The position numbers and the translations under genes were made by a program. Shown one piece after another: positions 14,168 to 25,030 of a stretch of DNA of 26,713 nt. The notes below the pieces were generated by a model, which worked only from the letters and a program-made list of their open reading frames with translations, was not told the origin of the DNA and searched no databases. This stretch comes from a virus. The stretch spans positions 1-26,713 of the IMG/VR virus record IMGVR_UViG_3300027467_000517, one strand, 5' to 3'. Each line of letters begins with the position of its first letter. Position 1 is the stretch's first letter.

Positions 14168-14188
14168 CCTACACCCTAGCGTGTCGGC

Positions 14189-14217: not shown

Positions 14218-14241
14218 TCCACTATAACTAAATAAGAGGTA

Positions 14242-14283: not shown

Positions 14284-14311
14284 GACCTCAACTAACGAAA
14301 GGATAAACTAA

Positions 14312-14437: not shown

Positions 14438-14559
14438 TGACTAAATGGGATACAATACAGGCAGATTTAGAGCCTATCACACCAAAGGTGTGGGGCGATG
14501 AACACGAATTCAATAATGATTTTGATGATGATTTTGATTTTGATTTGGAAATGGAGTAA
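14437..14559 (+). CDS. 40-residue very acidic peptide
   Basis: Starts MTKWDTIQADLEPITPKVWG and ends in NDFDDDFDFDLEME, alternating Asp and Phe. The high negative charge could imitate DNA or bind a basic partner, but this is speculative. Coupled to the upstream gene by TAATG. Confidence 0.6.
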   Translation: MTKWDTIQADLEPITPKVWGDEHEFNNDFDDDFDFDLEME

Positions 14560-14565
14560 ATAAAA

Positions 14566-14718
14566 ATGGATAGATACTTAGTAATAGATATCACTAGCGA
14601 TGGGCTTGCTTTTGAAACCGCCCAATTTGATTTCTACCTCTCTCCCCTAGGTATGGCGTTAGTAGTAGTGGGCGTTATTGCTTACAAGATTTACAAGCGC
14701 AGAAAGCGTGTGTTCTAA
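14566..14718 (+). CDS. Small single-span membrane protein
   Basis: A 50-residue protein. A soluble N-terminal part (MDRYLVIDITSDGLAFETAQ) is followed by LSPLGMALVVVGVIAYKIY (about 25-43), then KRRKR. The positive tail predicts cytoplasmic C-terminus and an outside N-terminus. It follows the acidic gene by 6 bases. Function unknown; membrane remodelling, lysis control or exclusion are open possibilities. Confidence 0.65.
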   Translation: MDRYLVIDITSDGLAFETAQFDFYLSPLGMALVVVGVIAYKIYKRRKRVF

Positions 14719-14762
14719 AACACAAAACGGATCGGCGTGTCGATTTGACAAAATCGGCAGCT

Positions 14763-14782
14763 GCCCGCAGTCTTTTGCGGGC
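14763..14782 (+). terminator. GCCCGCA/TGCGGGC hairpin
   Basis: A perfect 7-bp stem with a 6-nt loop after the operon ending at 14718, without a T tract. The CCCGCA/TGCGGG pairing recurs at 16570, 18065 and 20147. It may be a terminator of the actinobacterial, T-poor kind. GGCGTGTCG (14734-14742) lies before it. Confidence 0.5.
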
Positions 14783-14834
14783 GATTTGTACCGTTATGTC
14801 CGATTTAAGTAGATTCACGGAAAACCCCGAAAAA

Positions 14835-14850
14835 TGTGAGATTTATCACA
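14835..14850. promoter_or_regulatory. CRP/GlxR-type palindrome, site 4
   Basis: TGTGA-GATTTA-TCACA, preceded by AAAACCCCGAAAAA, a context also seen at 25.55 kb. Centre 68.5 bases from the end of the next -10 box. Confidence 0.65.
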
Positions 14851-14889
14851 AAACAAAATGTCCGATTTGTGGCATTACTGGTCAGTAAA

Positions 14890-14911
14890 TGTCAGACCCC
14901 CCTGTTATACT
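14890..14911 (+). promoter_or_regulatory. TGTCRG promoter 4
   Basis: TGTCAG, 10 nt, TATACT. An ATG at 14889 overlaps the element and would give an upstream extension; the real start is more likely 14949, after AGAAAGG. Confidence 0.7.
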
Positions 14912-14948
14912 TCAGTTATTAGATAGTAAAAAAGAAAGGTGGTCTAAA

Positions 14949-15155
14949 ATGACTACACTAAATAAAAATAATAAAGTAAATGCTTTCGACATTATCGAAG
15001 AAAAAGGCTTATGCGCTATGGATAAAATTTGCGTATTTTGCTCAATAATGACAGATGGGTGGAATAGTTTTTGCCCAAGATGTAAAGAATACAAAGGTAT
15101 GATGAGATTACCTGAAGCCATAGAATACTATGGTGAAGAAATTATTGGATACTAA
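14949..15155 (+). CDS. Zinc-ribbon protein
   Basis: A 68-residue protein. C28-x2-C31 (ICVFCS) and C42-x2-C45 (FCPRCK) form a classic four-Cys ribbon. A helix (LPEAIEYYGEEIIG) ends the protein. Start chosen at 14949 because AGAAAGG precedes it; the ATG at 14889 lies within the promoter. Function unknown; such ribbons commonly bind nucleic acid or RNA polymerase. Confidence 0.75.
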   Translation: MTTLNKNNKVNAFDIIEEKGLCAMDKICVFCSIMTDGWNSFCPRCKEYKGMMRLPEAIEYYGEEIIGY

Positions 15156-15173
15156 TAGAAAGGATAACTAATA

Positions 15174-15296
15174 ATGGGTTACATTGAAATTTTTAGATTA
15201 GATGAACAAGGTGCTGGCTGGGTTGATCTCAGCGAGGCTACGCCTGAAGAATTGCTAAACCTTGAAATTGGCTTATTTCAAGAGGGAGCTTTGTGA
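15174..15296 (+). CDS. 40-residue hypothetical peptide
   Basis: Frame MGYIEIFRLDEQGAGWVDLS, then EATPEELLNLEIGLFQEGAL. AGAAAGGA upstream, 18 bases after the previous gene. Beta-hairpin followed by a helix; acidic. Its TGA stop lies within CRP-like site 5. Not assigned. Confidence 0.6.
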   Translation: MGYIEIFRLDEQGAGWVDLSEATPEELLNLEIGLFQEGAL

Positions 15297-15307
15297 GATT
15301 TCTCACA
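15292..15307. promoter_or_regulatory. CRP/GlxR-type palindrome, site 5
   Basis: TGTGA-GATTTC-TCACA. The reverse complement of this exact 16-mer occurs at 18126. It includes the stop codon of the preceding gene. Centre 76.5 bases from the end of the next -10 box. Confidence 0.65.
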
Positions 15308-15347
15308 AGGCTAAGCGTCTCAAAATTTGAGAAAATCCGATTTGGAT

Positions 15348-15376
15348 TTGTAAAGCCCGTAAAATTTTGGTAAAAT
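15348..15376 (+). promoter_or_regulatory. Second-class promoter with repeat over -10
   Basis: TTGTAA, 17-nt spacer, TAAAAT. The -10 lies within TTGG-TAAAATTG-CCAA. There is no TGTCGG element. It resembles the promoter at 25546. Confidence 0.6.
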
Positions 15377-15401
15377 TGCCAACCTAAAGAAAGGAAAACT
15401 A

Positions 15402-15617
15402 ATGAGAAGTTATTCAATTGTAGATTTACTAGTAGACCAATACTATGCGCCTACTTCATTATCCCGCCGTTTCAATGGTGGAATTATAAACTTTGCTGAA
15501 AAGCGTGAGGATACTTATCCGCCAGAGGGTTGGGAACACTTTGCTATTCGCTACCGCCCAACAGGGTCAATTCAAGACCAATGGGCTACTGTCGCTGTGA
15601 GGCTTACCGACTACTAA
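15402..15617 (+). CDS. Hypothetical small protein
   Basis: A 71-residue protein: a helix (SYSIVDLLVDQYYAP), then GGIINFAEKREDTYPPEGWE and HFAIRYRPTG...QWATVAVRLTDY, a beta pattern. AGAAAGGA upstream. No known family recognised. Confidence 0.7.
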   Translation: MRSYSIVDLLVDQYYAPTSLSRRFNGGIINFAEKREDTYPPEGWEHFAIRYRPTGSIQDQWATVAVRLTDY

Positions 15618-15618
15618 A

Positions 15619-15640
15619 TGTCGGTGGCTTCCGCTATAAT
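15619..15640 (+). promoter_or_regulatory. TGTCRG promoter 5
   Basis: TGTCGG, 10 nt, TATAAT, directly after the stop of the preceding gene. AACGAAAGGA and an ATG follow. Confidence 0.8.
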
Positions 15641-15667
15641 CTAATCAACTAAACGAAAGGAAAACTA

Positions 15668-15790
15668 ATGAAATTCAATTCTCTCGAAGACTTCAAGTCT
15701 TATGTTATCTCTCAGCGTGAAGCAAGCAAGGCTGAAGCCTTGTCGGTGCTAACTGCTACAATTCCAACAACAGAACGAAAGGAAAACTAA
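15668..15790 (+). CDS. 40-residue peptide whose 3' end contains the next promoter and ribosome site
   Basis: Frame MKFNSLEDFKSYVISQREAS, then KAEALSVLTATIPTTERKEN. AACGAAAGGA upstream. Codons 24-31 contain TGTCGG-N10-TACAAT, and the last codons (ACAGAACGAAAGG) spell the start-associated sequence of the next gene. The peptide may be real, with overlapping regulatory code, or the frame may have arisen around the cassette. Confidence 0.55.
   Translation: MKFNSLEDFKSYVISQREASKAEALSVLTATIPTTERKEN
15741..15762 (+). promoter_or_regulatory. TGTCRG promoter 6, inside a gene
   Basis: TGTCGG, 10 nt, TACAAT within codons 24-31 of the 40-residue gene. It would add transcription for the DnaJ-type finger gene at 15793. 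Confidence 0.65.
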
Positions 15791-15792
15791 AA

Positions 15793-15990
15793 ATGAAAAC
15801 AACAACAGAACTAATTGACACAATTCTAAATTGTGATGAGTGCTATGGACAAGGCGTATCGGGTTGGGTATCACCTGACGGCGACTATGATTTTGAGTAT
15901 TGCGAATGTAATCCATACAAAATAATTCTTGACTATGATAAAAGCGTAGTTGATACAGGAACTCTATTTGAAACTGCGGAGGCTAACTAA
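15793..15990 (+). CDS. DnaJ-type zinc-finger protein
   Basis: A 65-residue protein. C14-x2-C17-Y-G-x-G (CDECYGQG) and C37-x-C39 (YCECN) match the CxxCxGxG...CxC half-finger and the 41-residue protein at 14312. A C-terminal helix/strand part (PYKIILDYDKSVVDTGTLFE) extends it. AACGAAAGGA upstream; its stop overlaps the next ATG. Confidence 0.7.
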   Translation: MKTTTELIDTILNCDECYGQGVSGWVSPDGDYDFEYCECNPYKIILDYDKSVVDTGTLFETAEAN

Positions 15991-16199
15991 TGTATAAAAT
16001 AACTGTAACCTATGATGAAAGCAAAACCCCTGATTATGTTTTTCAATATTCAGATGAACTACAAGCACACAAAGAATTTGCTAAGTATGTTGATTGGGGA
16101 TTTGCTAACGAATACTCAACTGTAAATTTATTTACACCTAGCGGAAAATGCTACACAAAAATTTTCTATCGTGAAGGTAGAAGGGTGGTTGAAAAATAA
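15990..16199 (+). CDS. Hypothetical small protein
   Basis: A 69-residue alpha/beta protein: MYKITVTYDES, YVFQYSDELQAHKEFAKYVDW, STVNLFTPSGKCYTKIFYREG. This strand-helix-strand-strand pattern is typical of small phage proteins. Coupled to both neighbours (start and stop each share a base with the adjoining gene). No known family recognised. Confidence 0.7.
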   Translation: MYKITVTYDESKTPDYVFQYSDELQAHKEFAKYVDWGFANEYSTVNLFTPSGKCYTKIFYREGRRVVEK

Positions 16200-16387
16200 T
16201 GATGACAAGAAAAGACTATGTTGCTACCGCAGAAATTCTGCGGTATGTTTCAGATAAAACTCACCCAGCCGTTTTTTCTAAAATGGTTGTAGATTTTGCG
16301 GAGATGTTCGCAAGAGATAACGAAAGATTTGACGCCACTAAATTTTATTCGGCTTCAAATTACAAAATTCCAAATTTCAGTAACTAA
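16199..16387 (+). CDS. Small conserved-type actinophage protein
   Basis: A 62-residue helical protein (TRKDYVATAEILRYV, then FSKMVVDFAEMFARDNERFD and FYSASNYK). The pattern DFaxMFaxDNxxFDxxxFxxA is one I recall from many actinobacteriophage small proteins of unknown function. Coupled by overlap to the gene before it. Confidence 0.75.
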   Translation: MMTRKDYVATAEILRYVSDKTHPAVFSKMVVDFAEMFARDNERFDATKFYSASNYKIPNFSN

Positions 16388-16405
16388 ATAAAAAAAGGAC
16401 AGAAA

Positions 16406-16552
16406 ATGAAATTACCAAATAAAGAAAGAATAAAAAAAGTTTTGGAATTGCGGAGATCAAATGCCGCAACTCCAATTCCTAGTAAAAAAATTTACAAGCG
16501 AAAACAAAAACATAAAAAAACCGCTGTTGGTAAAACTATGAATTGGGATTAG
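16406..16552 (+). CDS. 48-residue very basic peptide
   Basis: MKLPNKERIKKVLELRRSNA, then ATPIPSKKIYKRKQKHKKTA and VGKTMNWD. High Lys/Arg content and no acidic tail suggest nucleic-acid binding. AAAAGGA lies upstream. The stop overlaps a perfect 16-bp palindrome AGTTGAAATTTCAACT (16551-16566). Confidence 0.6.
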   Translation: MKLPNKERIKKVLELRRSNAATPIPSKKIYKRKQKHKKTAVGKTMNWD

Positions 16553-16586
16553 TTGAAATTTCAACTAAGCCCGCAGTAGCTGCGGG
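16551..16586 (+). terminator. Two adjacent hairpins after the basic peptide gene
   Basis: A perfect palindrome AGTTGAAATTTCAACT (16551-16566) is followed by CCCGCAG-tag-CTGCGGG (16570-16586). There is no T tract. The second is a member of the CCCGCA/TGCGGG series. GGCGTGTCG (16591-16599) follows. Confidence 0.5.
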
Positions 16587-16608
16587 GTCGGGCGTGTCGT
16601 TAAGTAGA

Positions 16609-16624
16609 TGTGAGATTTATCACA
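16609..16624. promoter_or_regulatory. CRP/GlxR-type palindrome, site 6
   Basis: TGTGA-GATTTA-TCACA, identical to site 4. Followed by GGAATTTTGAC, also seen elsewhere in variant form, and by GGCGTGTCG (16636-16644). Centre 56.5 bases from the end of the next -10 box. Confidence 0.65.
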
Positions 16625-16644
16625 GGAATTTTGACGGCGTGTCG

Positions 16645-16673
16645 CTGAAAATGTCAGCCTTTTACGCTATAAT
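16645..16673 (+). promoter_or_regulatory. TGTCRG promoter 7
   Basis: CTGAAA, 17-nt spacer, TATAAT, with TGTCAG (16652-16657) 10 nt before the -10 box. AACGAAAGGA follows before the ATG at 16704. Confidence 0.8.
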
Positions 16674-16703
16674 TGCTGCGTATCCCAACGAAAGGAAATA
16701 ACT

Positions 16704-17201
16704 ATGGGTTTAGATATGTATCTCCACGCTAAGAAATATGTGGAAAAAGTAAATTGGCAGGTCCTACAAGAAAATCAAGACTTGTCTTATGATAGTCCTG
16801 AAGCAATTAATCCTCTATGGAAAGATATTGTTTCTACCTCTCAAATGTCAGATGTTGCTACAGATATTTATGGCGTAAATGTTGAAGTTACTTGTGCTTA
16901 TTGGCGTAAGTCTAATCAAATACACAAATGGTTTGTAGATAATGTACAAAATGGTGAAGATAATTGTGGCGAATACTATGTATCACACGATAAATTAAAG
17001 GAATTAAGGGAAACCTGCCGTCAAGCCTTATTCGCTAAGGACCCTAGTTTGCTGCCGCCACAAGGTGGATTTTTCTTTGGCAATACCGATATTGATGAAT
17101 GGTATTGGCAAGATATCAAGGACACTATCAAGAAACTTGATCGGGTGTTCAAATTGTCCGATTTCGACAAATTGTCCTTTTATTACAATTCCTCTTGGTA
17201 A
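16704..17201 (+). CDS. Conserved phage protein of unknown function (MGLDMYL type)
   Basis: A 165-residue protein. It starts MGLDMYLHAKKYV and contains YWRKSNQIHKWFVDNVQNGE with CGEYYVS (about 72-100), followed by a helix (KLKELRETCRQALF) and a C-terminal Trp/Asp region (FGNTDIDEWYWQDIKDTIKK). The YWRKxNxIHxWFV core is familiar from many phage proteins with no assigned function. It has its own promoter and ribosome element. The stop overlaps the start of the next promoter. Confidence 0.8.
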   Translation: MGLDMYLHAKKYVEKVNWQVLQENQDLSYDSPEAINPLWKDIVSTSQMSDVATDIYGVNVEVTCAYWRKSNQIHKWFVDNVQNGEDNCGEYYVSHDKLKELRETCRQALFAKDPSLLPPQGGFFFGNTDIDEWYWQDIKDTIKKLDRVFKLSDFDKLSFYYNSSW

Positions 17202-17202
17202 A

Positions 17203-17224
17203 TGTCGGTGGGCCCGTGTATAAT
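17203..17224 (+). promoter_or_regulatory. TGTCRG promoter 8
   Basis: TGTCGG, 10 nt, TATAAT. GGGCCC lies on both sides of the -10 box. AACGAAAGG precedes the ATG at 17249. Confidence 0.8.
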
Positions 17225-17248
17225 GGGCCCTCTAACGAAAGGTCTCTC

Positions 17249-17968
17249 ATGAAATTAAAACGTTCTAACGATAGAAAGGTCGCTAATGCCGTCTCAAAAA
17301 ATGGAAAAACCCCAACAATTGCCAACACCTTCGGATTACCTGCTGGAAAAGATTTCTCGTGTCCTGGTGCCACTAGTGTTTGTGAAAGCGTTTGCTATGC
17401 AGGAAAACTTGAAAGAGTATACAAGGGAGTAAGAGCGGTCCTCTTACACAATTGGGAATTACTTAAGAATGCAGATGTTGAAACTATGGTTTCTCTTCTG
17501 GATGAAATGATTGTTGATTTTAAAAAAGATTGTGATAAAAAGTCTGCAGAAAAATTATTCCGTATCCATTGGGACGGAGATTTCTTTTCAGATACCTACG
17601 CATATGCGTGGAAGACTGTAATTAATCGTCATGCGGATGTTCAATTTTGGGTTTATACACGTGTTTATTCTGCTGTACCAATTCTAATTGACATTCCTAA
17701 TCTGTCTCTTTATTTTTCTACCGACGATGAGAATAAAGAAATTGCAGGCGCATTGCGTGATTTGCATAATGTCCGTCTTGCATACTTAGGCAAAACGTTT
17801 GCTGTCACCGAAAGCGTTATGAAAGAATTAACTGGCAAGGTCGGTGCTAAGTGTCCTGAAAATAATAAACAAATTCCATTGATTTCAACTAATGGCAGCG
17901 CATGTGTGTCATGTGGATTGTGTGTATTTAATAAGGCTGATATTAGATTTTCTGCGAGTAAAAAATGA
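17249..17968 (+). CDS. Gp88-like cysteine-rich protein
   Basis: A 239-residue protein. Start at 17249 after AACGAAAGG; a frame from 17195 would run through the promoter. C38-x6-C45-x3-C49 (SCPGATSVCESVCYAG) and C202, C219-x2-C222-x2-C225 (ACVSCGLC) suggest a metal or Fe-S cluster. RIHWDGDFFSD, VQFWVYTRVYS and LSLYFSTDDEN look like barrel strands. The pattern matches the phage gene product 88 family (PF17338-like, from memory). The barrel-like layout and Cys clusters recall radical-SAM-related proteins, but the canonical CxxxCxxC is absent. Reaction unknown. Its TGA overlaps a tiny membrane gene. Confidence 0.8.
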   Translation: MKLKRSNDRKVANAVSKNGKTPTIANTFGLPAGKDFSCPGATSVCESVCYAGKLERVYKGVRAVLLHNWELLKNADVETMVSLLDEMIVDFKKDCDKKSAEKLFRIHWDGDFFSDTYAYAWKTVINRHADVQFWVYTRVYSAVPILIDIPNLSLYFSTDDENKEIAGALRDLHNVRLAYLGKTFAVTESVMKELTGKVGAKCPENNKQIPLISTNGSACVSCGLCVFNKADIRFSASKK

Positions 17969-18060
17969 TAGAGCTCCTTGGATCTGTTGCAGCTATTTTA
18001 TTTATTGCATTGTTACTGTCACCGTTTATATTAATAATTTATATGTTGACAAAACTGTAA
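17965..18060 (+). CDS. 31-residue membrane peptide coupled to the Gp88-like gene
   Basis: ATGA overlap with the previous stop. MIELLGSVAAILFIALLLSP, then FILIIYMLTKL: a single hydrophobic helix with an acidic residue near the N-terminus and a Lys at the end. The ATGA coupling is the main support. It may anchor or regulate a complex, or be a lysis or exclusion peptide. Function unknown. Confidence 0.6.
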   Translation: MIELLGSVAAILFIALLLSPFILIIYMLTKL

Positions 18061-18064
18061 AATG

Positions 18065-18114
18065 CCCGCAATATATTGCGGGGTTATCCACAGATTTAAG
18101 TGGACCTGTGGATA
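18065..18114. promoter_or_regulatory. Palindrome plus inverted DnaA-box-like pair, copy 1
   Basis: CCCGCAATATATTGCGGG (18065-18082) is a perfect 18-bp palindrome. TTATCCACA (18084-18092), the DnaA-box consensus, follows. TATCCACAG and CTGTGGATA are 9-bp inverted arms with a 12-nt gap (18085-18114). The same layout recurs at 20147-20194. Confidence 0.6.
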
Positions 18115-18125
18115 TTCACGGGAAT

Positions 18126-18141
18126 TGTGAGAAATCTCACA
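18126..18141. promoter_or_regulatory. CRP/GlxR-type palindrome, site 7
   Basis: TGTGA-GAAATC-TCACA, the reverse complement of site 5. CGGCG-aca-CGCCG (18146-18158), containing GGCGTGTCG in reverse, follows. Centre 62.5 bases from the end of the -10 box. Confidence 0.65.
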
Positions 18142-18167
18142 AACACGGCGACACGCCGATAATGGAT

Positions 18168-18196
18168 TAGATAATGTCGCAGGCTTACGCTATAAT
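18168..18196 (+). promoter_or_regulatory. TGTCRG-class promoter 9
   Basis: TAGATA, 17-nt spacer, TATAAT, with TGTCGC (18175-18180) 10 nt before the -10 box. AAACGAAAGGA precedes the ATG at 18227. Confidence 0.75.
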
Positions 18197-18226
18197 TCCA
18201 CTATCAACAAACGAAAGGAAAAAATA

Positions 18227-18478
18227 ATGTCCAACTTCTCAAATTGGAAATCCTACCCGTTTTCAGTAGACGGTGTAGACTTTGTATCTTTAATTAATCC
18301 TGAAGGTTCAATGTATGCTCAAATTCAACGAGTGCCTGCACAGGTATTTACTCAAATGAACGAATCTGCAATTCGTGAGTTAATTGGTAAAGTATCTCTC
18401 TTATCCCGCTCTGAAATTCAGGATGAGTTAGACCGTGTAAATGAAGGCTACGGTCAGGCTTACCTAGCCCTAGCCTAA
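18227..18478 (+). CDS. Hypothetical small protein
   Basis: An 83-residue protein: SNWKSYPFSVDGVDFVSLIN, a beta part, then two helices (AQVFTQMNESAIRELIGKVS, RSEIQDELDRVNEGYGQAYL). It has its own promoter and AAACGAAAGGA. A further TGTCGG promoter begins immediately after its stop. No known family recognised. Confidence 0.7.
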   Translation: MSNFSNWKSYPFSVDGVDFVSLINPEGSMYAQIQRVPAQVFTQMNESAIRELIGKVSLLSRSEIQDELDRVNEGYGQAYLALA

Positions 18479-18480
18479 AA

Positions 18481-18511
18481 TGTCGGTGGGTAGGTGTATA
18501 ATCTACCCACC
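18481..18511 (+). promoter_or_regulatory. TGTCRG promoter 10 with 9-bp inverted repeat around -10
   Basis: TGTCGG, 10 nt, TATAAT (18497-18502). GGTGGGTAG (18485-18493) and CTACCCACC (18503-18511) are perfect inverted arms flanking the -10 box. Confidence 0.8.
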
Positions 18512-18530
18512 ACACAACGAAAGGAAAAAA

Positions 18531-18806
18531 ATGCTATCAACCGCAACCGCTCTTATTCAGGCAACTGAAGAAAGTATTTTTGATGAGGAAATTATGGGTT
18601 TTGCTCAGGCTTTCTGCTATCACGCTAAAGAATTAGATGACGAACAATTCGCTAAATCTATTTATACTTATTCTTGTATGCTTGCTTCTCTCGCAATAGA
18701 TAAGGCTACTAAAATTTTGCTAACTGAAACTCAGGTAAAAGAACTTATGGCTACTATTGATGAAATGGAAACAATGAGAGATGAGGTATTAGAAAATGGG
18801 GAGTAA
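18531..18806 (+). CDS. Hypothetical helical protein
   Basis: A 91-residue protein. Start at 18531, after AACGAAAGGA; a frame from 18480 would run through the promoter. Helices dominate (TATALIQATEESIFDEEIMG, EEFAK-like DEQFAKSIYTYSCMLASLAI, VKELMATIDEMETMRDEVL). Acidic. It overlaps the next gene by 11 bases. No known family recognised. Confidence 0.7.
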   Translation: MLSTATALIQATEESIFDEEIMGFAQAFCYHAKELDDEQFAKSIYTYSCMLASLAIDKATKILLTETQVKELMATIDEMETMRDEVLENGE

Positions 18807-19059
18807 TTTTGCTACTGAACTTGCTGAACTAGACTTAGGTTTATCTTTAGAGGATAGTATAGCTATTCACTTATCCGCTAATCATTACCCACCCGTCCCA
18901 CGATCAATGGTTCAACCTTGTATTGATGCTATTGATGCTTACTATGATGAGGACTATGAACGCCTTATTGACCTACCCTCCCCAATTACTTGGAGGGATA
19001 AAAATACGGCTCCCGCTTCGGCTATTGTCGAGGCTCACCACCTAGAGGCTTGGTTGTGA
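18796..19059 (+). CDS. Actinophage-type small protein, HYPP...HHLEAWL family
   Basis: An 87-residue protein whose second half reads HYPPVPRSMVQPCIDAIDAY, YERLIDLP, WRDKNTAPASAIVEAHHLEA. I recall this pattern from many actinobacteriophage early-region proteins, with no known function. GGAG lies within the end of the previous gene. The TGA stop is part of CRP-like site 8. Confidence 0.8.
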   Translation: MGSNFATELAELDLGLSLEDSIAIHLSANHYPPVPRSMVQPCIDAIDAYYDEDYERLIDLPSPITWRDKNTAPASAIVEAHHLEAWL

Positions 19060-19070
19060 TAAATCTCACA
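19055..19070. promoter_or_regulatory. CRP/GlxR-type palindrome, site 8
   Basis: TGTGA-TAAATC-TCACA, the reverse complement of sites 4 and 6. It includes the stop codon of the preceding gene. Centre 52.5 bases from the end of the next -10 box. Confidence 0.65.
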
Positions 19071-19093
19071 ATCATTAGCAAGGGCTTGCCACT

Positions 19094-19115
19094 TGTCGGT
19101 AGCCCCTGCTATAAT
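19094..19115 (+). promoter_or_regulatory. TGTCRG promoter 11
   Basis: TGTCGG, 10 nt, TATAAT. GGTAG and CTACC form short inverted arms around the -10 box. AGAAAGGA precedes the ATG at 19146. Confidence 0.8.
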
Positions 19116-19145
19116 CTACCCACCTACTAATAGAAAGGAAGCAAA

Positions 19146-19322
19146 ATGACCATAAATGGTTATACTTACAAGGTTGGCGATTTATTCACCACCCTAAAGT
19201 CAAAGAAAACAGGCGTAATCAAAGAGATTATTCCTAACGCATCTGGCTCGGTGCGTGTATTGTTGGAACTACCAACAAAAGAAACACGCTGGACAACTAT
19301 CTCTGCTGATAGCCTAGCCTAA
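19146..19322 (+). CDS. 58-residue small beta protein, paralogue of the gene at 19897
   Basis: Starts MTINGYTYKVGDLFTTLKSK and contains KTGVIKEIIPN, VRVLLELPTKETRWTTI. The protein at 19897 shares YKxGDxFTTxKS..TGxIxEII and ETxxxxRW in the same order, so they are tandem paralogues. Small SH3-like fold likely. AGAAAGGA ribosome site. Confidence 0.7.
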   Translation: MTINGYTYKVGDLFTTLKSKKTGVIKEIIPNASGSVRVLLELPTKETRWTTISADSLA

Positions 19323-19345
19323 TTCAATGGCAGGGCTCACCGAAA

Positions 19346-19367
19346 TGTCGGTGGGCTCTGCTACAAT
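19346..19367 (+). promoter_or_regulatory. TGTCRG promoter 12
   Basis: TGTCGG, 10 nt, TACAAT. CACCGA-aatg-TCGGTG gives a small palindrome over the TGTCGG element. AAACGAAAGGA follows. Confidence 0.75.
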
Positions 19368-19403
19368 TCTCTCACACAAACAAACAAACGAAAGGAAAAA
19401 CAA

Positions 19404-19823
19404 ATGAGTAGAGGAAAAGCCATAAATGTAAAGATTGCCACCACAAAGGTAATCAAGGCTCTTGAAACTAAGTTAGCACAAATCCAAAAGGATAAGGCTA
19501 ATCAGAAAGTCAATGAGGAAAGATACTCAAAGGCTCAAGAAAAATGGAGTAAAGAAATTGCTAAACTTGCTCTTGCTAAAATCGCAAAGGCGGAAAATGT
19601 CCGTGCTAATGTCCGATACAATGGTATGGTAAATGTAGATTTTGATTTACCTGCTGGTTCTATTGAACTACCTGTTGAACCTACTAAGGACTTTGATACT
19701 TACCACGATTGGCAGTATAAGGAAATGGTAGAGGAAATTGAGAACGCAATTCGTATTCTCAAAATGACGGACGAGGAAGTTGTAAGCACTTCAACTTACA
19801 ATGCTATTGCTCGTTATCTCTAA
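19404..19823 (+). CDS. Hypothetical protein with N-terminal coiled coil
   Basis: A 139-residue protein. Lys/Ala/Glu-rich helices (about 10-66) probably form a coiled coil. A short beta segment follows (VRYNGMVNVDFDLPAGSIEL), then an acidic helix (YKEMVEEIENAIRILKM). AAACGAAAGGA ribosome element. No known family recognised. Confidence 0.7.
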   Translation: MSRGKAINVKIATTKVIKALETKLAQIQKDKANQKVNEERYSKAQEKWSKEIAKLALAKIAKAENVRANVRYNGMVNVDFDLPAGSIELPVEPTKDFDTYHDWQYKEMVEEIENAIRILKMTDEEVVSTSTYNAIARYL

Positions 19824-19896
19824 TTAGAGATTTGGTGCTGGGTATCACCTAAGGTAAAACTGCCCACCAACACACCAACAAACGAAAGGAAATAAA

Positions 19897-20079
19897 ATGT
19901 CACCAATTCTAGATACTAAGAAGGGTCGCTTCTATAAAAAAGGCGATGTCTTTACAACTGGTAAATCAGGAATTACTGGCACAATTAGCGAAATTATTTC
20001 AGTTAGACCAACACTTACAAAACTTGGTTTAGAAACTGAAAAAGGTTTGCGTTGGGCTATGGTAAAAATCGGAGCATAA
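19897..20079 (+). CDS. 60-residue small beta protein, paralogue of the gene at 19146
   Basis: KKGRFYKKGDVFTTGKSGIT is followed by GTISEIISVRP and ETEKGLRWAMVKIGA, parallel to the gene at 19146. AAACGAAAGGA upstream, but its promoter region has lost a clear TGTCGG. A long-loop hairpin follows the stop. Confidence 0.7.
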   Translation: MSPILDTKKGRFYKKGDVFTTGKSGITGTISEIISVRPTLTKLGLETEKGLRWAMVKIGA

Positions 20080-20084
20080 TAATC

Positions 20085-20129
20085 TTGGGGCGGGTTTGAA
20101 CTGTGTAATCATCTAGATTCCCGCCCCAA
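20085..20129 (+). terminator. Long-loop GC hairpin
   Basis: TTGGGGCGGG (20085-20094) and CCCGCCCCAA (20120-20129) are perfect 10-bp arms with a 25-nt loop, just after the stop at 20079. No T tract, but the stem is strong. Confidence 0.6.
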
Positions 20130-20146
20130 CTTCCCCGATCAAGCTG

Positions 20147-20194
20147 CCCGCAAATATGTGCGGGGTTATCCACAGCGTTACGGCTGCCTGTGGA
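20147..20194. promoter_or_regulatory. Palindrome plus inverted DnaA-box-like pair, copy 2
   Basis: CCCGCA-aatatg-TGCGGG (20147-20164), then TTATCCACA (20166-20174). TCCACAG and CTGTGGA are inverted with a 12-nt gap, the same order and spacing as at 18065-18114. Confidence 0.6.
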
Positions 20195-20208
20195 AAACCC
20201 TGAAAAAA

Positions 20209-20224
20209 TATGAGATTGATCACA
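20209..20224. promoter_or_regulatory. CRP/GlxR-type palindrome, site 9 (one mismatch)
   Basis: TATGA-GATTGA-TCACA, one mismatch from TGTGA-N6-TCACA. Preceded by AAAACCCTGAAAAA as at site 4. Centre 68.5 bases from the end of the next -10 box, as for site 4. Confidence 0.5.
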
Positions 20225-20255
20225 TGTCCGTTTTGCCCTAATGTCTAACTAACTA

Positions 20256-20285
20256 TAGACAAATGTCGGTGGGGTCTGTTATACT
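20256..20285 (+). promoter_or_regulatory. TGTCRG promoter 14
   Basis: TAGACA, 18-nt spacer, TATACT, with TGTCGG (20264-20269) 10 nt before the -10 box. AATCGAAAGGA precedes the DUF932-type gene. The number 14 leaves 13 for the degenerate region before 19897. Confidence 0.8.
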
Positions 20286-20318
20286 TAGGCTCAATCTAAC
20301 AATCGAAAGGAAAAAATC

Positions 20319-21323
20319 ATGGCTCATAACCTTGAAACAAATGGCAATGAAGTTGCCTTTGCTTTGCGTGGAACTCCCGCATGGCACAATCTCGCAAATC
20401 GTATCTTCTCACAAGATGAAGATGTGACTACTCAAACAATGCTTGAAGAAGCAAAATTGGCTAACTGGAATGTTCGCCTCTCTCCACTAACTGACCATAT
20501 TTCAGAATCATGGAATGATGTTTCTAATGCTCAATTAGTTATTCGCACAAATCCATTCAATGGCGGAACTGATGTTCTTGCTACCGTTGGTAAGCGATAC
20601 AAGCCTGTTCAAAATGAAGAATTATTTGCTTTCGCAGATAATATTCATGACGCTAACCCTGAGTGCCGTTGGGAATCTGCTGGCTCTCTAAAGAATGGTA
20701 AAGTTGTATTTGGAACCGTTGATGTTCCTCGCACAATGGTATTAGACCCACAAGGTGCTAATGACCAAACCAAACTTTATCTAATCGTATGGACATCTCA
20801 CGACGGCTCTGTTGCTGTTCAAGCAGCGATTACACCTGTTCGTGTTGTATGCCAAAACACTTTGAATCTTGCTATGCGTAATGCTAAGCAATCATTCAAA
20901 ATTCGTCACACACAATCTGTTGAGGGACGAATTCAAGTTGCTCGTGAAACTCTTGGGCTTGCTCTTGGATACTTTGATGAATTCGAGAAAGAAGCGCAGG
21001 AACTTTTCAAGGCTGAAATTACAAATGCTGAATTCTCTAAATTGATTCAGACAATTTATCCTAAGCCTGAAAAAGATTCTAAGGGTGCTCTCAAAAAGTG
21101 GGAAAATAAAGTTATCTTGATTGATGACCTTTATCATAACTCACCAACTAACGCTAATATCAAGGGAACAAAATGGGGTGCTTTCAATGCGCTTACTGAA
21201 CGCCTTGATTATTTCCGTTCTGGTCGTGGCAATAGCGAATCGCTAATGGCGGGCGCAAGTGGCTTTGACCCTGTTCTTACTGCTGAGAAAAATAAAATTC
21301 TCAAGTTAGTAAAATCATTCTAA
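20319..21323 (+). CDS. DUF932 / phage-plasmid-like protein (TIGR03299 type)
   Basis: A 334-residue protein. The N-terminus (MAHNLETNGNEVAFALRGTP AWHNLA) and the middle (TPVRVVCQNTLNLAMRNAKQ) match the TIGR03299/DUF932 family found on actinobacterial phages and plasmids. The middle part holds a helical segment rich in Glu/Lys (FDEFEKEAQELFKAEIT). The C-terminus reads SPTNANIKGTKWGAFNALTE. The function of the family is not established, though its members cluster with replication and early genes. It is the largest gene of the plus-strand block and is followed by the strongest terminator there. Confidence 0.9.
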   Translation: MAHNLETNGNEVAFALRGTPAWHNLANRIFSQDEDVTTQTMLEEAKLANWNVRLSPLTDHISESWNDVSNAQLVIRTNPFNGGTDVLATVGKRYKPVQNEELFAFADNIHDANPECRWESAGSLKNGKVVFGTVDVPRTMVLDPQGANDQTKLYLIVWTSHDGSVAVQAAITPVRVVCQNTLNLAMRNAKQSFKIRHTQSVEGRIQVARETLGLALGYFDEFEKEAQELFKAEITNAEFSKLIQTIYPKPEKDSKGALKKWENKVILIDDLYHNSPTNANIKGTKWGAFNALTERLDYFRSGRGNSESLMAGASGFDPVLTAEKNKILKLVKSF

Positions 21324-21338
21324 TAAAATGATTACACT

Positions 21339-21373
21339 AGCGGGGGAACTAAAAATTCCCCCGCTTTTTATTT
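21339..21373 (+). terminator. Strong rho-independent terminator
   Basis: AGCGGGGGAA, loop of 7, TTCCCCCGCT (10-bp perfect stem), then TTTTATTT. It lies after the DUF932-type gene and just before the tRNA. Confidence 0.9.
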
Positions 21374-21446
21374 GGTGCGTTAGCTTAGCGGTTAAAGCGC
21401 TACCCTGTCACGGTAGAGATCACGGGTTCAAATCCCGTACGCATCG
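21374..21446 (+). tRNA. tRNA-Asp (GTC)
   Basis: Full cloverleaf of 73 nt. Acceptor GGTGCGT pairs with ACGCATC (one G-T), D stem GCTT/AAGC, anticodon stem CTACC/GGTAG with loop CTGTCAC (anticodon GTC), T stem ACGGG/CCCGT with TTCAAAT loop, and discriminator G as usual for Asp. No CCA is encoded. It lies directly after a terminator, so it has separate transcription or is cut from read-through RNA. It could support the Asp-rich small proteins of this region. Confidence 0.95.
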
Positions 21447-21563
21447 CAATATGAGATAACAATTTCAAATAATGAGACGCCCGCAATATACTAAGGATGT
21501 CCCGCAGCTTTTACGGGCGTGACATAGATCATATGGGAATATAGAAAAATTCACTGGAAATCC

Positions 21564-21593
21564 TTGACTCTTGTCAGTGTGCTCCACTATAAT
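21564..21593 (+). promoter_or_regulatory. TGTCRG promoter 15
   Basis: TTGACT, 18-nt spacer, TATAAT, with TGTCAG (21572-21577) 10 nt before the -10 box. This copy has the best -35 and -10 boxes of the series. AGAAAGGA follows. Confidence 0.85.
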
Positions 21594-21616
21594 AGGGCCC
21601 AAAGAAAGGAAGTAAA

Positions 21617-22390
21617 ATGCCAAATTGGTGTTACAACGGATTAACCATTGAGGGTAATCCTGATTTAGTAAATGACCTTGTTCGTCAAATGAACAAGCCA
21701 TTTGTCATGCTACATGATTCATGGAATATGGAAACACAGGAAATGGAAGTCTCTCAGACCACATATCCAAATCCTGTATTTGCATTCTATAATATCTATA
21801 ACCACCGTCAAGCAGGTATCACAGACCAAGAATATGTTCAACAACCTATTCGTTCTGAGAAATCTTTAGACGACCCTGAGTGGTGGTCAGATACAATGAA
21901 AATAGCCCAAGAAGACAAAGGTTGGTATAACTGGAATGTTGTCAACTGGGGAACCAAATGGGATGTTGCTGTTAAAGACGGTGATAAATATCCTGAAACA
22001 TATATAGAGGGGCCTACTCCTAATGGAGAGAACCTTGTAGTTTATTATAACTTTAATACTGCTTGGTCTCCACCAATGCCTGCTCTTGCTAAACTATCTG
22101 AACAATACCCAAGTTTGTTATTCACCTTATCTTATGAGGAAGAGACAGGTTGGGGCGGAGAATGCGAATTCCTACGTGGAGAAGTTATCTCTGAAATGGA
22201 TTATGAAAACAGATGTAGAGATTGTGACGAATATAACACTCTATCCTATTGCGAAGAATGTGATAATGAGTTATGCTCTGCCTGCAACTATCTAGGTGAA
22301 GCAGACCTTGATGCCATCAAGGAATGTCCGACCCATAAGGTATACTTAGACGCTGAACATGTCCCACACTACAGAATGGAGAAAATCTAA
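21617..22390 (+). CDS. YubB/Api92-like protein with C-terminal zinc module
   Basis: A 257-residue protein. The start MPNWCYNGLTIEG is the hallmark of the YubB/Api92 ferredoxin-like family, and FYNIYNHRQAG with VNWGTKWD (109-116) fits the rest of that domain. The family is common on phages and plasmids without known function. Residues 200-223 add a cysteine module (CRDC, CEEC, CSAC: C200, C203, C212, C215, C220, C223), probably binding one or two zinc ions. This appears to be a fusion. AGAAAGGA upstream; TAATG links it to the next gene. Confidence 0.8.
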   Translation: MPNWCYNGLTIEGNPDLVNDLVRQMNKPFVMLHDSWNMETQEMEVSQTTYPNPVFAFYNIYNHRQAGITDQEYVQQPIRSEKSLDDPEWWSDTMKIAQEDKGWYNWNVVNWGTKWDVAVKDGDKYPETYIEGPTPNGENLVVYYNFNTAWSPPMPALAKLSEQYPSLLFTLSYEEETGWGGECEFLRGEVISEMDYENRCRDCDEYNTLSYCEECDNELCSACNYLGEADLDAIKECPTHKVYLDAEHVPHYRMEKI

Positions 22391-22929
22391 TGGAGACAGC
22401 ACCATACACATACAACCCAAATGCTCTCGTCACAGTAAAACATATTGTTGACGGCGAAGCAACATATGAAACTATCAAGGTTGTTGACCTAGAGGGAATG
22501 CTCTATGTCAATCCAACTATTGATGTAATTGAATCACACACTGACGGTACACACACTGTGCATAACATGAAGCGTACTGATATCATGGAGATGTTCCGTC
22601 TTCGTGGTTTTACTAATGCTCGTCTTGAACAACAGGAAAAGCAAATCGGTCAAGTTATTGATAACATGACTGCACAAGGTTGGTACAACCCTAACACTGA
22701 TAAGTCAGAAATTCTTTCTGATTTATGTGAAATCTTTGGTCATGAACCAAAGCAAGAAATCAGAATCACTGGCAGCATCACATTTGATGTTCGCTATGAT
22801 TGTCCATTAGATGAAGTAGAGGATTTCGATGCCCGCTACTTCCTCCAAGATACATTAACATTAGATGCATATAACGGCGACGTTATTGTTGAATCGTTCG
22901 ATGTCGAAGATGCGGACGTGGACTGGTAA
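22390..22929 (+). CDS. Hypothetical protein
   Basis: A 179-residue protein. The first 70 residues are beta-rich (ALVTVKHIVDGEATYETIKV), then a helical part (RLEQQEKQIGQVIDNMTAQG), and the end is acidic beta (IRITGSITFDVRYDCPLDEV). Coupled by TAATG on both sides, so it is expressed with the YubB-like gene. No known family recognised. Confidence 0.7.
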   Translation: METAPYTYNPNALVTVKHIVDGEATYETIKVVDLEGMLYVNPTIDVIESHTDGTHTVHNMKRTDIMEMFRLRGFTNARLEQQEKQIGQVIDNMTAQGWYNPNTDKSEILSDLCEIFGHEPKQEIRITGSITFDVRYDCPLDEVEDFDARYFLQDTLTLDAYNGDVIVESFDVEDADVDW

Positions 22930-23141
22930 TGTATTTTGAATTAACTGCGCCAAACCAGTTGGCCCTGCAAAGGGCCTACTGGGAGGCAGATGTGCTTGGA
23001 TTGGATCCATTGCATATCAAAGACACCTTGACATTCGAGATAGGAACAGGTAGTATAGAGAAAGTAAGTCGCATTCGTGATAAGTATAATTTAACTGAAA
23101 GTTATACCTCAGAATACGAACCAACAGGTTATAGGAGATAA
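22929..23141 (+). CDS. Small actinophage-type protein
   Basis: A 70-residue protein: MYFELTAPNQLALQRAYWEA, then GLDP..IKDTLTFEIGTGSI and EKVSRIRDKYNLTESYTSEY. I recall the same order (FELTAP...A.W.A...GLDP...STG...KV..IRDKYNL) in actinobacteriophage small proteins. Its start shares a base with the preceding stop. Function unknown. Confidence 0.75.
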   Translation: MYFELTAPNQLALQRAYWEADVLGLDPLHIKDTLTFEIGTGSIEKVSRIRDKYNLTESYTSEYEPTGYRR

Positions 23142-23142
23142 T

Positions 23143-23289
23143 ATGTCAGATTACAAGAGCGGTTGGGATGACGGGTATAAGTATGCTCGTGAAGAAATCA
23201 TGGAGAAGCTGCGTGAGATTGATATCTCAGATATTGACTCTTGGATTCTAGATAGATTGTCAGACATGATAGAGGGCGGTAATCTATGA
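23143..23289 (+). CDS. 48-residue helical acidic peptide
   Basis: MSDYKSGWDDGYKYAREEIM, then EKLREIDISDIDSWILDRLS and DMIEGGNL. AGGAGATA ribosome site 8 bases upstream, and the stop overlaps the next ATG (ATGA). The GWDDGYKYAREEI start is typical of small phage proteins of unknown role. Confidence 0.7.
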   Translation: MSDYKSGWDDGYKYAREEIMEKLREIDISDIDSWILDRLSDMIEGGNL

Positions 23290-23495
23290 GTAACAGATTT
23301 ATCGGATGTGATAAATGTGTCACAGCCAAAGCTGTATATCAAGCAAGAGGCTTGGCAGGAGATTTATTTTTCTGTGGCCACCACTACAATGAATTCAAAG
23401 AGGCCCTTGACAAATGGTCCTATGAAGTTGTAGACTTATCCATTGAAAACACACAACAAGAAAAGGCGGAAGTAACAAATGGGAGCACGTATTAA
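23286..23495 (+). CDS. DUF7455-like zinc protein
   Basis: A 69-residue protein. C8-x2-C11 (GCDKCVTAKAVYQARGLAG) and C30-x-H32-H33 (FFCGHH) match the pattern CdxCxaxAxvxxxxxxGxLxFCxHH of small actinobacterial and actinophage proteins. A zinc site is likely. Function unknown. Coupled to the gene before, and overlaps the next by 17 bases. Confidence 0.8.
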   Translation: MSNRFIGCDKCVTAKAVYQARGLAGDLFFCGHHYNEFKEALDKWSYEVVDLSIENTQQEKAEVTNGSTY

Positions 23496-23820
23496 TTATA
23501 TCTTCAATGAGGGTGAGGACCAGCCTGCGGTATGGCTGTACAGTCATTGGGGAGAAGATGAATGGGAAATTAAATTAGCAGCAGCATTAAACCATGCCCG
23601 TCCAAGGTGGGAAGACACATCTTATTGCATTCGTATGATTATTTCTCATATGATTCAGCATGAGGTCCTGGATGAGACTGGATATGGAATTGGTGCTGTA
23701 GATAAGCCAAGCAACTTTGCAGCGTGGGACACCACAATTGATGTTGACATGGTTAATAAAATGGTAGACGGTCACACATGGGATGAATTTATCAATTATC
23801 ATTTGGGGGTTACAGTTTAG
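23479..23820 (+). CDS. Conserved phage protein of unknown function (MGARINY type)
   Basis: A 113-residue protein. MGARINYIFNEGEDQPAVWL opens it, then YSHWGEDEW, HARPRWEDTSYCIRMIISHM and LDETGYGIGA. This order (LYSHWG...W...L..A....RW.D..Y..R...) is frequent in actinobacteriophage genomes. No enzyme motif. Last gene of the 21617-23820 operon. The promoter of the ncRNA lies right after its stop. Confidence 0.8.
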   Translation: MGARINYIFNEGEDQPAVWLYSHWGEDEWEIKLAAALNHARPRWEDTSYCIRMIISHMIQHEVLDETGYGIGAVDKPSNFAAWDTTIDVDMVNKMVDGHTWDEFINYHLGVTV

Positions 23821-23832
23821 TCTACTAAAATA

Positions 23833-23841
23833 TGCTATAAT
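23833..23841 (+). promoter_or_regulatory. Extended -10 promoter of the ncRNA
   Basis: TGC followed by TATAAT (TGnTATAAT), with a weak -35 region (TTACAG at a long 20-nt spacing). Same context (atatgctata) as the promoter at 11472. Confidence 0.6.
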
Positions 23842-23847
23842 GTAATC

Positions 23848-23972
23848 ACAAACGTTTGGTGAGGCTATCAGGGTTCCTTTCGCCCAAGTCTTTAAATATG
23901 CATAGTGTGGATGCAGCCAAACACCAGGGGCCCAGCAGAGGGAGAGACTGCTAGGGCCCCACTTCTTTTTTT
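23848..23972 (+). ncRNA. Candidate structured non-coding RNA, about 125 nt
   Basis: An extended -10 promoter and a very strong terminator bracket about 125 bases with no credible reading frame. Possible pairings are: GTTTGG (23854-23859) with CCAAAC (23917-23922), closing the domain; GGG-N8-CCC (about 23870-23885); TGCAT-agtgtgg-ATGCA (about 23898-23914); and the terminator stem. This is compatible with a three-way junction followed by a terminator. It does not resemble a tRNA, and no downstream gene is joined to it, so a free RNA is more likely than a riboswitch. Pairings were found by eye. Confidence 0.6.
23927..23972 (+). terminator. Very strong rho-independent terminator
   Basis: GGGGCCC-a-GCAG pairs with CTGC-ta-GGGCCCC (about 11 bp with a small bulge), loop of 9, followed by ACTTC and seven T. 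Confidence 0.9.
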
Positions 23973-24094
23973 AGAGCTGCCCGCAAAAACCTGAGGATAG
24001 CATAGATCATTTACGTGTGTCAAATATATTTCACAGGAATTTCAGCATATGAGACAAACTAACCTATTAGTCATTTTATGTGATCCACATCATA

Positions 24095-24124
24095 TGGACA
24101 AATGTCGGTGGTATGAACTATAAT
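24095..24124 (+). promoter_or_regulatory. TGTCRG promoter 16
   Basis: TGGACA, 18-nt spacer, TATAAT, with TGTCGG (24103-24108) 10 nt before the -10 box. AACGAAAGGA follows. The region from 23973 to 24095 holds GCTGCCCGCA, TTCACAGGAATTTC and ATGTG-atc-CACAT, remnants of the modules seen upstream of other genes. Confidence 0.8.
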
Positions 24125-24151
24125 TAAGCCATGTCTAACGAAAGGAATAAT

Positions 24152-24373
24152 ATGGAAATGTTTACAGATACTCTAGGAGAACATATTCTAGGGGCTATTC
24201 AAGTAGAAATTGAAGAACAACTATTTGATGATTGGAATAATAATAACCTTGATGAGGGGGAGGAATATGCTGAACATAAGTTCATTGAATTTGCCTCCAA
24301 TGACATCAAGAAATCTTACAATGAGTTTTATAATTTAACTCCTGATGATGAATATTATTTTGAGGTTGATTAA
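24152..24373 (+). CDS. Hypothetical acidic protein
   Basis: A 73-residue protein: MEMFTDTLGEHILGAIQVEI, EEQLFDDWNNNNLDEGEEYA, NDIKKSYNEFYNL, and an acidic end. I choose ATG 24152 because AACGAAAGGA lies just before it. ATG 24131 is also in frame and lies at leaderless distance from the -10 box (80 aa). Coupled to the next gene by TAATG. Confidence 0.65.
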   Translation: MEMFTDTLGEHILGAIQVEIEEQLFDDWNNNNLDEGEEYAEHKFIEFASNDIKKSYNEFYNLTPDDEYYFEVD

Positions 24374-24531
24374 TGTTAGGTTATACATATAAGGAGATAC
24401 AAGAGTTTGGTATTACTTTAAATAGGGCAGAATTTTATCTGCCGCCGTCCGATAAGGAAACCAGGCAAGGTCTATTAACTATTTGGGATTTCTTTGAAGG
24501 CCTATTAGCAGAGGGGTATGTGGCTGAATAA
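24373..24531 (+). CDS. 52-residue hypothetical protein
   Basis: MLGYTYKEIQEFGITLNRAE, FYLPPSDKETRQGLLTIWDF, then FEGLLAEGYVAE. Helical with a proline-containing loop. Both ends are joined to the neighbouring genes by TAATG, which supports it. Confidence 0.65.
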   Translation: MLGYTYKEIQEFGITLNRAEFYLPPSDKETRQGLLTIWDFFEGLLAEGYVAE

Positions 24532-24749
24532 TGTCTAATCAATTAATTGAATATATGAAGATTCATCAGATTAGTTTACAACAAGATTTAGAAAAACTAT
24601 CTGAACAAATGGATGCTCTTGACCCTAATTGTAAGGATTATGCTTATTTAGATGTAGAGTATAACTGGGTATCAGGACAACTTACTGCCACCCACCATTT
24701 ATTGTCAGTGGGCTCTGATATACTTGGCATTCCAACAGAGGAGAAATAA
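24531..24749 (+). CDS. Helical coiled-coil protein with internal promoter
   Basis: A 72-residue protein with a heptad-like helix (IEYMKIHQISLQQDLEKLSE) and a second helix (VSGQLTATHHLLSVG). The TGTCAG-N10-TATACT promoter lies in its last 16 codons, probably serving the genes after it. Coupled by TAATG on both sides. Confidence 0.65.
   Translation: MSNQLIEYMKIHQISLQQDLEKLSEQMDALDPNCKDYAYLDVEYNWVSGQLTATHHLLSVGSDILGIPTEEK
24703..24724 (+). promoter_or_regulatory. TGTCRG promoter 17, inside a gene
   Basis: TGTCAG, 10 nt, TATACT in the 3' coding part of the gene ending at 24749, before the gene at 24749. GAGGAGAAATA supplies the ribosome site. This is a second example of the cassette promoter in coding DNA. 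Confidence 0.6.
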
Positions 24750-25030
24750 TGCAAGAACAGGCGGACAAACTACAGCCACATCTACAGCGTCTTGTTGACG
24801 CTGGAGTTAGCGGCATTGATATCATGCATGGCGAACTCAAACTTCGCATGTTAGAGGCGGAAGCGGAATATGCAGAAGCCAAGCGTATTGAGGAAGAGAA
24901 CGATTACTCAGACGCAATGGAATCTATGGAGCGGAAGTATGCAGAAGGAATGCTGGACGCATACACATGGATATATAAAGACACATATGACATCTCATTT
25001 GCAATAGCGGCTAAGGAGGCTGGAGAATGA
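24749..25030 (+). CDS. Coiled-coil protein
   Basis: A 93-residue, strongly helical protein: QADKLQPHLQRLVDAGVSGI, then ELKLRMLEAEAEYAEAKRIE and AMESMERKYAEGMLDAYTWI. AGGAG ribosome site. Overlaps the next gene by 4 bases (ATGA). No known family recognised. Confidence 0.7.
   Translation: MQEQADKLQPHLQRLVDAGVSGIDIMHGELKLRMLEAEAEYAEAKRIEEENDYSDAMESMERKYAEGMLDAYTWIYKDTYDISFAIAAKEAGE

Follow-up and report, generated by a model that had tools for sequence, protein, structure and literature searches.

A phage RNA from a conserved family, with a loop complementary to ribosome-binding sites of its own genome: a putative antisense switch

The c4 antisense RNA of phages P1 and P7 (RF01695) blocks a phage ribosome-binding site, and its complementary stretches are thought to lie in loops (PMC12197685, PMC2864571). 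The sar antisense RNA of P22 pairs with the ant mRNA and blocks translation initiation (PMC12197685). PreS of lambda and VpdS of VP882 are trans-acting small RNAs that bind Hfq, with host genes or sRNAs as described targets and, for VpdS, also phage mRNAs (PMC12197685). As described in these papers, c4 and sar are each directed at one mRNA, and PreS and VpdS largely at the host (PMC12197685).

We have analyzed an IMG/VR virus record of 26,713 bases, here called the window, in which an RNA of about 125 nt is predicted. Like c4, this RNA is phage-encoded and structured and has a loop complementary to a phage ribosome-binding site. However, c4 acts on the ant mRNA only and sar on a single target, the antirepressor mRNA, whereas the window RNA is predicted to be multi-target, its tag being common to about a dozen separate genes. 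Its predicted targets also set it apart from PreS and VpdS, since they are leaders of its own phage that share a tag. In the 6C RNA of Actinobacteria and in the LhrC family, pyrimidine- or C-rich loops of hairpins cover purine-rich Shine-Dalgarno sequences; the window RNA displays a similar pyrimidine loop, but on a different fold and with no Rfam match. The 6C RNA (RF01066) was absent from the matches at the gathering threshold or with E up to 10. The RF01695 covariance model gave no match at the gathering threshold, nor with E up to 10 in 23780-24130, and by this criterion the RNA falls outside the c4 family. By analogy, the window RNA would work most like c4 and sar, except that a single RNA would act on many genes of the same phage, all marked by one tag.

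A non-coding RNA gene of a family absent from Rfam

The RNA unit sits between the stop of an ORF at 23479-23820 and a gene at 24131, and its features are collected in Table 1. The original prediction had described a structured orphan RNA between an extended -10 promoter and a strong terminator, and most of its elements could be read in the sequence: the promoter and the pairings GUUUGG/CCAAAC, UGCAU/AUGCA and GGG/CCC were all found, and the possible three-way junction became a true one once the helix GAGGCU/AGUCUU, which had been missed, was added. There is no good -35, and the start was therefore placed at ~23848. The terminator and its seven T were also present, with a stem of 12 bp and one bulge rather than of 11 bp. 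Because of the bulged A and of the T run beginning five bases past the stem, a simple terminator scan had missed it.

Table 1. Coordinates of the RNA gene elements and of the predicted target sites in the window
Feature	Position	Strand	Basis
Extended -10 promoter of the RNA gene, TGC-TATAAT	23833-23841	+	sequence
Predicted small RNA, ~125 nt	23848-23972	+	covariance models R1, R2
Helix P1, 5' arm GUUUGG (pairs with 23917-23922)	23854-23859	+	covariation
Helix P1, 3' arm CCAAAC	23917-23922	+	covariation
Helix P2, 5' arm GAGGCU (pairs with AGUCUU 23887-23892)	23861-23866	+	covariation
Apical hairpin of P2, GGG-UUCCUUUCG-CCC (GGG 23871-23873 pairs with CCC 23883-23885)	23871-23885	+	fold, alignment
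Exposed seed UUCCUUUCG, reverse complement of phage ribosome-binding motif CGAAAGGAA	23874-23882	+
Conserved junction strand UAAAUA between P2 and P3	23893-23898	+	UAARUA conserved in alignment A1
Helix P3, UGCAU-AGUGUGG-AUGCA (UGCAU 23899-23903 pairs with AUGCA 23911-23915)	23899-23915	+	sequence, alignment
Intrinsic terminator, 12-bp stem with one bulged A (arms 23927-23938/23948-23960), then ACUUCUUUUUUU (seven T at 23966-23972)	23927-23972	+	sequence, fold
Predicted target AACGAAAG at ribosome-binding site	14294-14301	+
Variant target AAAGAAAGGAA, no C, upstream of ORF 15402	15386-15396	+
Predicted target AACGAAAGGAA at ribosome-binding site	15652-15662	+
Predicted target AACGAAAGGAA upstream of ORF 15793	15774-15784	+
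Predicted target AACGAAAGGAA upstream of ORF 16704	16687-16697	+
Predicted target AACGAAAG upstream of GP88-family gene	17234-17241	+
Predicted target AACGAAAGGAA upstream of ORF 18227	18210-18220	+
Predicted target AACGAAAGGAA	18516-18526	+
Predicted target AACGAAAGGAA upstream of ORF 19404	19387-19397	+
Predicted target AACGAAAGGAA upstream of ORF 19897	19881-19891	+
Variant target AUCGAAAGGAA upstream of DUF932 gene 20319	20302-20312	+
Variant target AAAGAAAGGAA upstream of Api92-like gene 21617	21601-21611	+
Predicted target AACGAAAGGAA, ribosome-binding site of the gene downstream of the RNA	24137-24147	+

The earlier statements that the unit is not a tRNA, contains no convincing reading frame and falls into no known class all held. 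ARAGORN and Rfam detected no tRNA or tmRNA at the unit, the only one in the window being a tRNA-Asp at 21374-21447, and Rfam at gathering and permissive thresholds returned only tRNA and chance matches. No reading frame explains the region, which has only small overlapping ORFs; against coding are also the conserved stop codons in UAARUAA and the core lengths, which take all three values modulo 3. A conserved short reading frame or a known Rfam family would have refuted the prediction; both were looked for and neither was found. The folding energy of the window RNA was only slightly better than that of shuffled sequences (z -1.8), so that conservation was needed to decide.

A scan for the DUF932 protein yielded 80 related loci with conserved gene order, and the corresponding gap carries a related RNA wherever the locus extends far enough. 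A pattern scan for the RNA returned at least 120 stretches in viral contigs and none in the genome contig collection. The related viral contigs gave 63 distinct RNA cores with strong compensatory change. Among these 63 distinct RNA genes, TATGNTATAAT is exact in 46, a TATAAT-like box lies within 75 bases upstream in 53, and differing terminator-like hairpins occur at the same place in 43 under a strict rule.

A sequence-only MAFFT alignment of 34 members, from which the window type was left out, had a paired-column covariation of 0.392 vs 0.127 ± 0.012, and sliding controls did not exceed 0.10. Model R1, built on these 34 members, matched the window at 23850-23926 with 31 bits (E 3e-5), and model R2 matched the window RNA at 38.3 bits. 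When the alignment was enlarged to 72 members, including those from Streptomyces phages, 95.6% of the cells were paired, 15 of 20 pairs were altered on both sides, and the covariation score was 0.471 vs 0.123 ± 0.009 in shuffles; this alignment was fitted to the structure and is hence biased towards it. The strongest covarying helix is P2 (99% of cells paired), which reads GAGGCU/AGUCUU in the window and GCGGCU/AGUCGC, GCCUCU/AGGGGU, GCAUCU/AGGUGC or GCUUCU/AGGAGC among the relatives.

The window RNA has the features by which the family was defined, namely covarying P1, P2 and P3, the UAARUA junction, and a position shortly after the DUF932 gene on the same strand. Thus, the stretch 23848-23972 is the gene of a non-coding RNA folded as a three-way junction, with an extended -10 promoter and a terminator; its family is conserved and not represented in Rfam. 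Conservation and covariation, the latter proposed from the outset as a check, settled that the structured RNA is real, and the existence of a large family in related phages overturned its description as an orphan. We found no description of this RNA in a literature search. That the RNA is produced in the cell is inferred. Many relatives (L015, L022, L026 and others) have an extra 5' hairpin between promoter and P1 (e.g., AGGACCTTGGTCCT), which the window lacks.

Homologous RNAs in cultured Streptomyces phages

The ribonucleotide reductase and DUF932 proteins of the window are closest to those of Stanwilliamsviridae, a group of Streptomyces phages (67% and 51% identity, respectively). An actinobacterial host is inferred for the window phage from these relatives only. 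R1 detected the RNA in 13 of 13 fetched Stanwilliamsviridae records, with 16-27 bits and always downstream of the DUF932 gene. With R1 or R2, the named cultured phages found to carry the unannotated RNA were Jay2Jay, Yaboi, LilMartin, Gilson and Naboo. In the whole-genome search with R2, the hits in Gilson (107941-108013) and Naboo (50387-50461) both adjoined the DUF932 gene. The same model found no RNA in Coruscant, Weasels2, Athena, Evaa and Blett, five more distant actinophages that have a DUF932 or ribonucleotide reductase gene. By DNA similarity, 83 Streptomyces phage records have the RNA, mostly in two places each and mostly unannotated. A DNA search of the named phages with the window RNA gave only chance matches, the homologues being found by covariance model alone.

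The Stanwilliamsviridae RNA has the same scaffold and the same place after the DUF932 gene as that of the window, but its P3 loop carries GUCGG (constant GGUCGG) instead of CUUUCG. A constant linker, CCUUUCAAU, lies between P1 and the terminator in 13 Streptomyces phage records (L220-L232). In these phages, no loop k-mer stands out in the leaders, which are without a complement of the loop. The scaffold is thus present without a loop-leader match and has some older or additional role. Since it occurs in cultured Streptomyces phages, its expression and function are already within reach of work with laboratory strains.

Two annotations met along the way deserve a remark. Gene 2 of Jay2Jay (13805-14077 in L220), an annotated hypothetical ORF, runs on the opposite strand across the homologous RNA (773-846, complement, in Jay2Jay), and its status as a gene is doubtful. 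The only related contig in a genome collection (CAINGU010000031.1, 110 kb), which has the phage DUF932 gene, is placed in a metagenome bin labelled as a cyanobacterium, and is probably a misbinned phage genome.

The exposed loop and the tagged leaders

Many of the related loci with the RNA also carry a loop motif, here called the seed. Apart from the junction strand, no unpaired stretch is better conserved in this seed-bearing clade than CUUUCGUU in the P3 loop, and the conserved CUUUCG(UU) matches by reverse complementarity the phage's ribosome-binding sites, AACGAAAG(G). Two other loci, L004 and L037, resemble the window in that P3 has a different loop (AGUGUGG) and CUUUCG has moved to the apical loop of P2, by which the window RNA still qualifies for the clade. 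The GUU present in the other clades is missing from the window-type seed, since what follows CUUUCG there is the CCC arm of the stem. Its CUUUC is predicted to be unpaired with a probability of at least 0.99, and for some clades partial pairing of the 5' half of CUUUCG is predicted. The complementarity of this hairpin loop to the phage's own ribosome-binding sites had been overlooked in the original prediction.

In the window, AACGAAAG(GAA) is found upstream of many right-arm genes on the + strand and of no minus-strand gene. The candidate targets include the DUF932 and Api92-like genes (both with variant tags), the GP88-family gene and about ten small genes without known function. The GP88-family gene probably starts at ATG 17251, just past the ribosome-binding site AACGAAAGG, and not at TTG 17195. 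In an unbiased comparison of 8-mers, the loop was the RNA 8-mer with the most reverse-complement copies in 39 of 40 non-redundant loci; these complements lie mostly upstream of gene starts, and same-sense copies are nearly absent. Three contigs of 112, 113 and 115 kb have 10, 14 and 9 same-strand copies of AACGAAAG, respectively, all of them in a block of 10-12.5 kb around the RNA (0.06-0.09 expected per block) and none on the same strand outside. As the block limits were drawn after the sites had been seen, the Poisson values are descriptive.

Over 341 tagged leaders, the tag lies mostly 7-11 bases from the ATG (sd 1.9), its distance to the -10 being looser (sd 4.0). The tag behaves as a ribosome-binding site rather than as a DNA site. 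A TGTCR box is present upstream in 326 of these leaders; this promoter class is largely confined to the tagged block and differs from the promoter of the RNA gene. Within 14000-25000 of the window, TGTC(A/G)GTG occurs shortly upstream of a TATAAT-like -10 about once per short gene (e.g., at 15619, 17203, 18481, 20264 and 24103).

Duplex energies were computed for the loop only. They ranged from -9.1 to -12.0 kcal/mol in the tagged window genes (median -11.9), compared with medians of -5.2 kcal/mol for the other + strand genes and -4.3 kcal/mol for the minus-strand genes, both untagged. Full-length duplex energies, in which folding was ignored, gave no distinction between targets and non-targets and were not used further. 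The loop flanks pair slightly better with leaders of their own phage than with those of other phages (9.89 vs 9.67 bp, 5 of 5,000 shuffles).

We have fetched 63 further, more distant relatives, which allowed a natural comparison. Among non-redundant loci, AAC precedes GAAAG in a mean 59% of the leaders where RNA and seed are both present (n = 52), in 15% where there is no RNA (n = 38, with at least 4 kb of downstream DNA), and in 0 and 7% at the two loci with a seed-less RNA (L273 and L290, respectively). The loci without a detectable RNA keep the GAAAG ribosome-binding site, mostly without the AAC before it, AAA being the commonest alternative; relatives without the RNA, or with an RNA lacking the loop motif, mostly have AAAGAAAG instead. 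L247-L249 have an RNA with the seed, and the AACGAAAG tag is present.

L273 is informative: its RNA is nearly identical to that of the window, P3 included, but its P2 loop is CCCGUCA where the window has UUCCUUUCG, and none of its leaders carries AACGAAAG. Almost the whole RNA is common to L273, L004, L037 and the window, and of these four only the last three have CUUUCG, placed in the P2 loop, and AACGAAAG leaders. In the DUF932 tree, the seed-bearing loci form one clade, and therefore the association of seed and tag counts as about one evolutionary event; the two may have arisen together once. The main second observation beyond this event is the move of the seed to another arm in the window-type RNAs. 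Three loci (L302, L304 and L306) have fairly many AACGAAAG leaders (67, 38 and 50%, respectively), and no RNA was detected in their available stretches, nor a missed seed RNA in an intergenic hairpin.

Proposed mechanism and rival explanations

We propose, with a probability of roughly 0.62, that the RNA acts in trans as an antisense RNA and keeps a phage regulon from being translated; pairing and repression are inferred, and there are no expression data. The three-way-junction scaffold would hold the short loop CUUUCG(UU) exposed, and the loop would pair with an 8-11 nt tag, AACGAAAG(GAA). This tag makes up the ribosome-binding site in about a dozen short genes of the phage, which lie together no more than ~10 kb away from the RNA gene. 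The duplex would mask the Shine-Dalgarno sequence and so prevent the 30S subunit from loading, and it might also be cleaved. The outcome would be a single post-transcriptional switch turning down the whole gene set, its simplest use being to end an early phase; the timing is inferred, and "early" is a guess. If true, an RNA that recognizes one tag on many genes of its phage would give phage development a switch at the post-transcriptional level, and it would explain the AAC before the Shine-Dalgarno core of these ribosome-binding sites. The broader picture, in which actinophages have an RNA-run regulon where an RNA with an exchangeable loop silences about a dozen tagged own genes, and the Streptomyces phage scaffold bears another loop with another target, is tentative, and we put it a little below an even chance.

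All of the pairing evidence is neutral on the outcome. The RNA could pair with the tags and stabilize, protect or activate the mRNAs, or be a sponge titrated by abundant leaders, and the tags do lie near the predicted 5' ends of units with their own promoters (TGTCR box in 326/341). We consider this unlikely, as the paired stretch covers the likely Shine-Dalgarno GAAAG(G); base-pairing sRNAs that do so usually block initiation. It is also conceivable that the scaffold binds a protein or the ribosome in another role, with the Shine-Dalgarno match a by-product of the likeness of CUUUC to the 3' end of 16S rRNA. UCCUUUC is also present in the actinobacterial anti-Shine-Dalgarno, and in Streptomyces phages the conserved scaffold bears a different loop, GGUCGG, without a match in the leaders. 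However, the conserved CUUUCGUU reaches beyond any Shine-Dalgarno complement, and the AAC is specific to the seed-bearing phages, seed-less relatives having mostly AAAGAAAG, which makes such a by-product quite unlikely.

That the tag is restricted to a single block, which has a promoter class of its own, would also fit a DNA site for a phage regulator, of which the RNA gene merely holds one opposite-orientation copy. This is very improbable given that the tag keeps its distance to the start codon and not to the promoter, and that the motif stands in an apical loop in all seed-bearing clades, having moved to another apical loop in the window type. Finally, the gene at 24131 is downstream of the RNA, on the same strand and tagged, as would be expected if the RNA were its cis-acting leader or attenuator; but a terminator intervenes, the gene has its own TGGACA-18-TATAAT promoter, and the RNA stays while the downstream gene varies between loci. 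A cis-acting role is thus hardly tenable, and the trans-acting antisense RNA remains our preferred reading.

Two further elements adjoin the RNA gene. A non-coding block at 23974-24042 is conserved after the RNA in nearly all related loci, with the pattern GCCC.CAAAAG...GAGGGTA.CATA...TTTACG...GTCAA, and Jay2Jay has a similar TTTACGA...GTC.AAATTTCC stretch after its RNA. On the minus strand, this block reads as a promoter, TTGACA-18-TATCCT/TACCCT (24023-23994), that would transcribe antisense across the RNA gene. An imperfect palindrome, TATGTGATCCACATCATA (24069-24096), closely precedes the promoter of the gene at 24131 and is a possible operator; the relatives have GTGG-type inverted repeats at the matching place.
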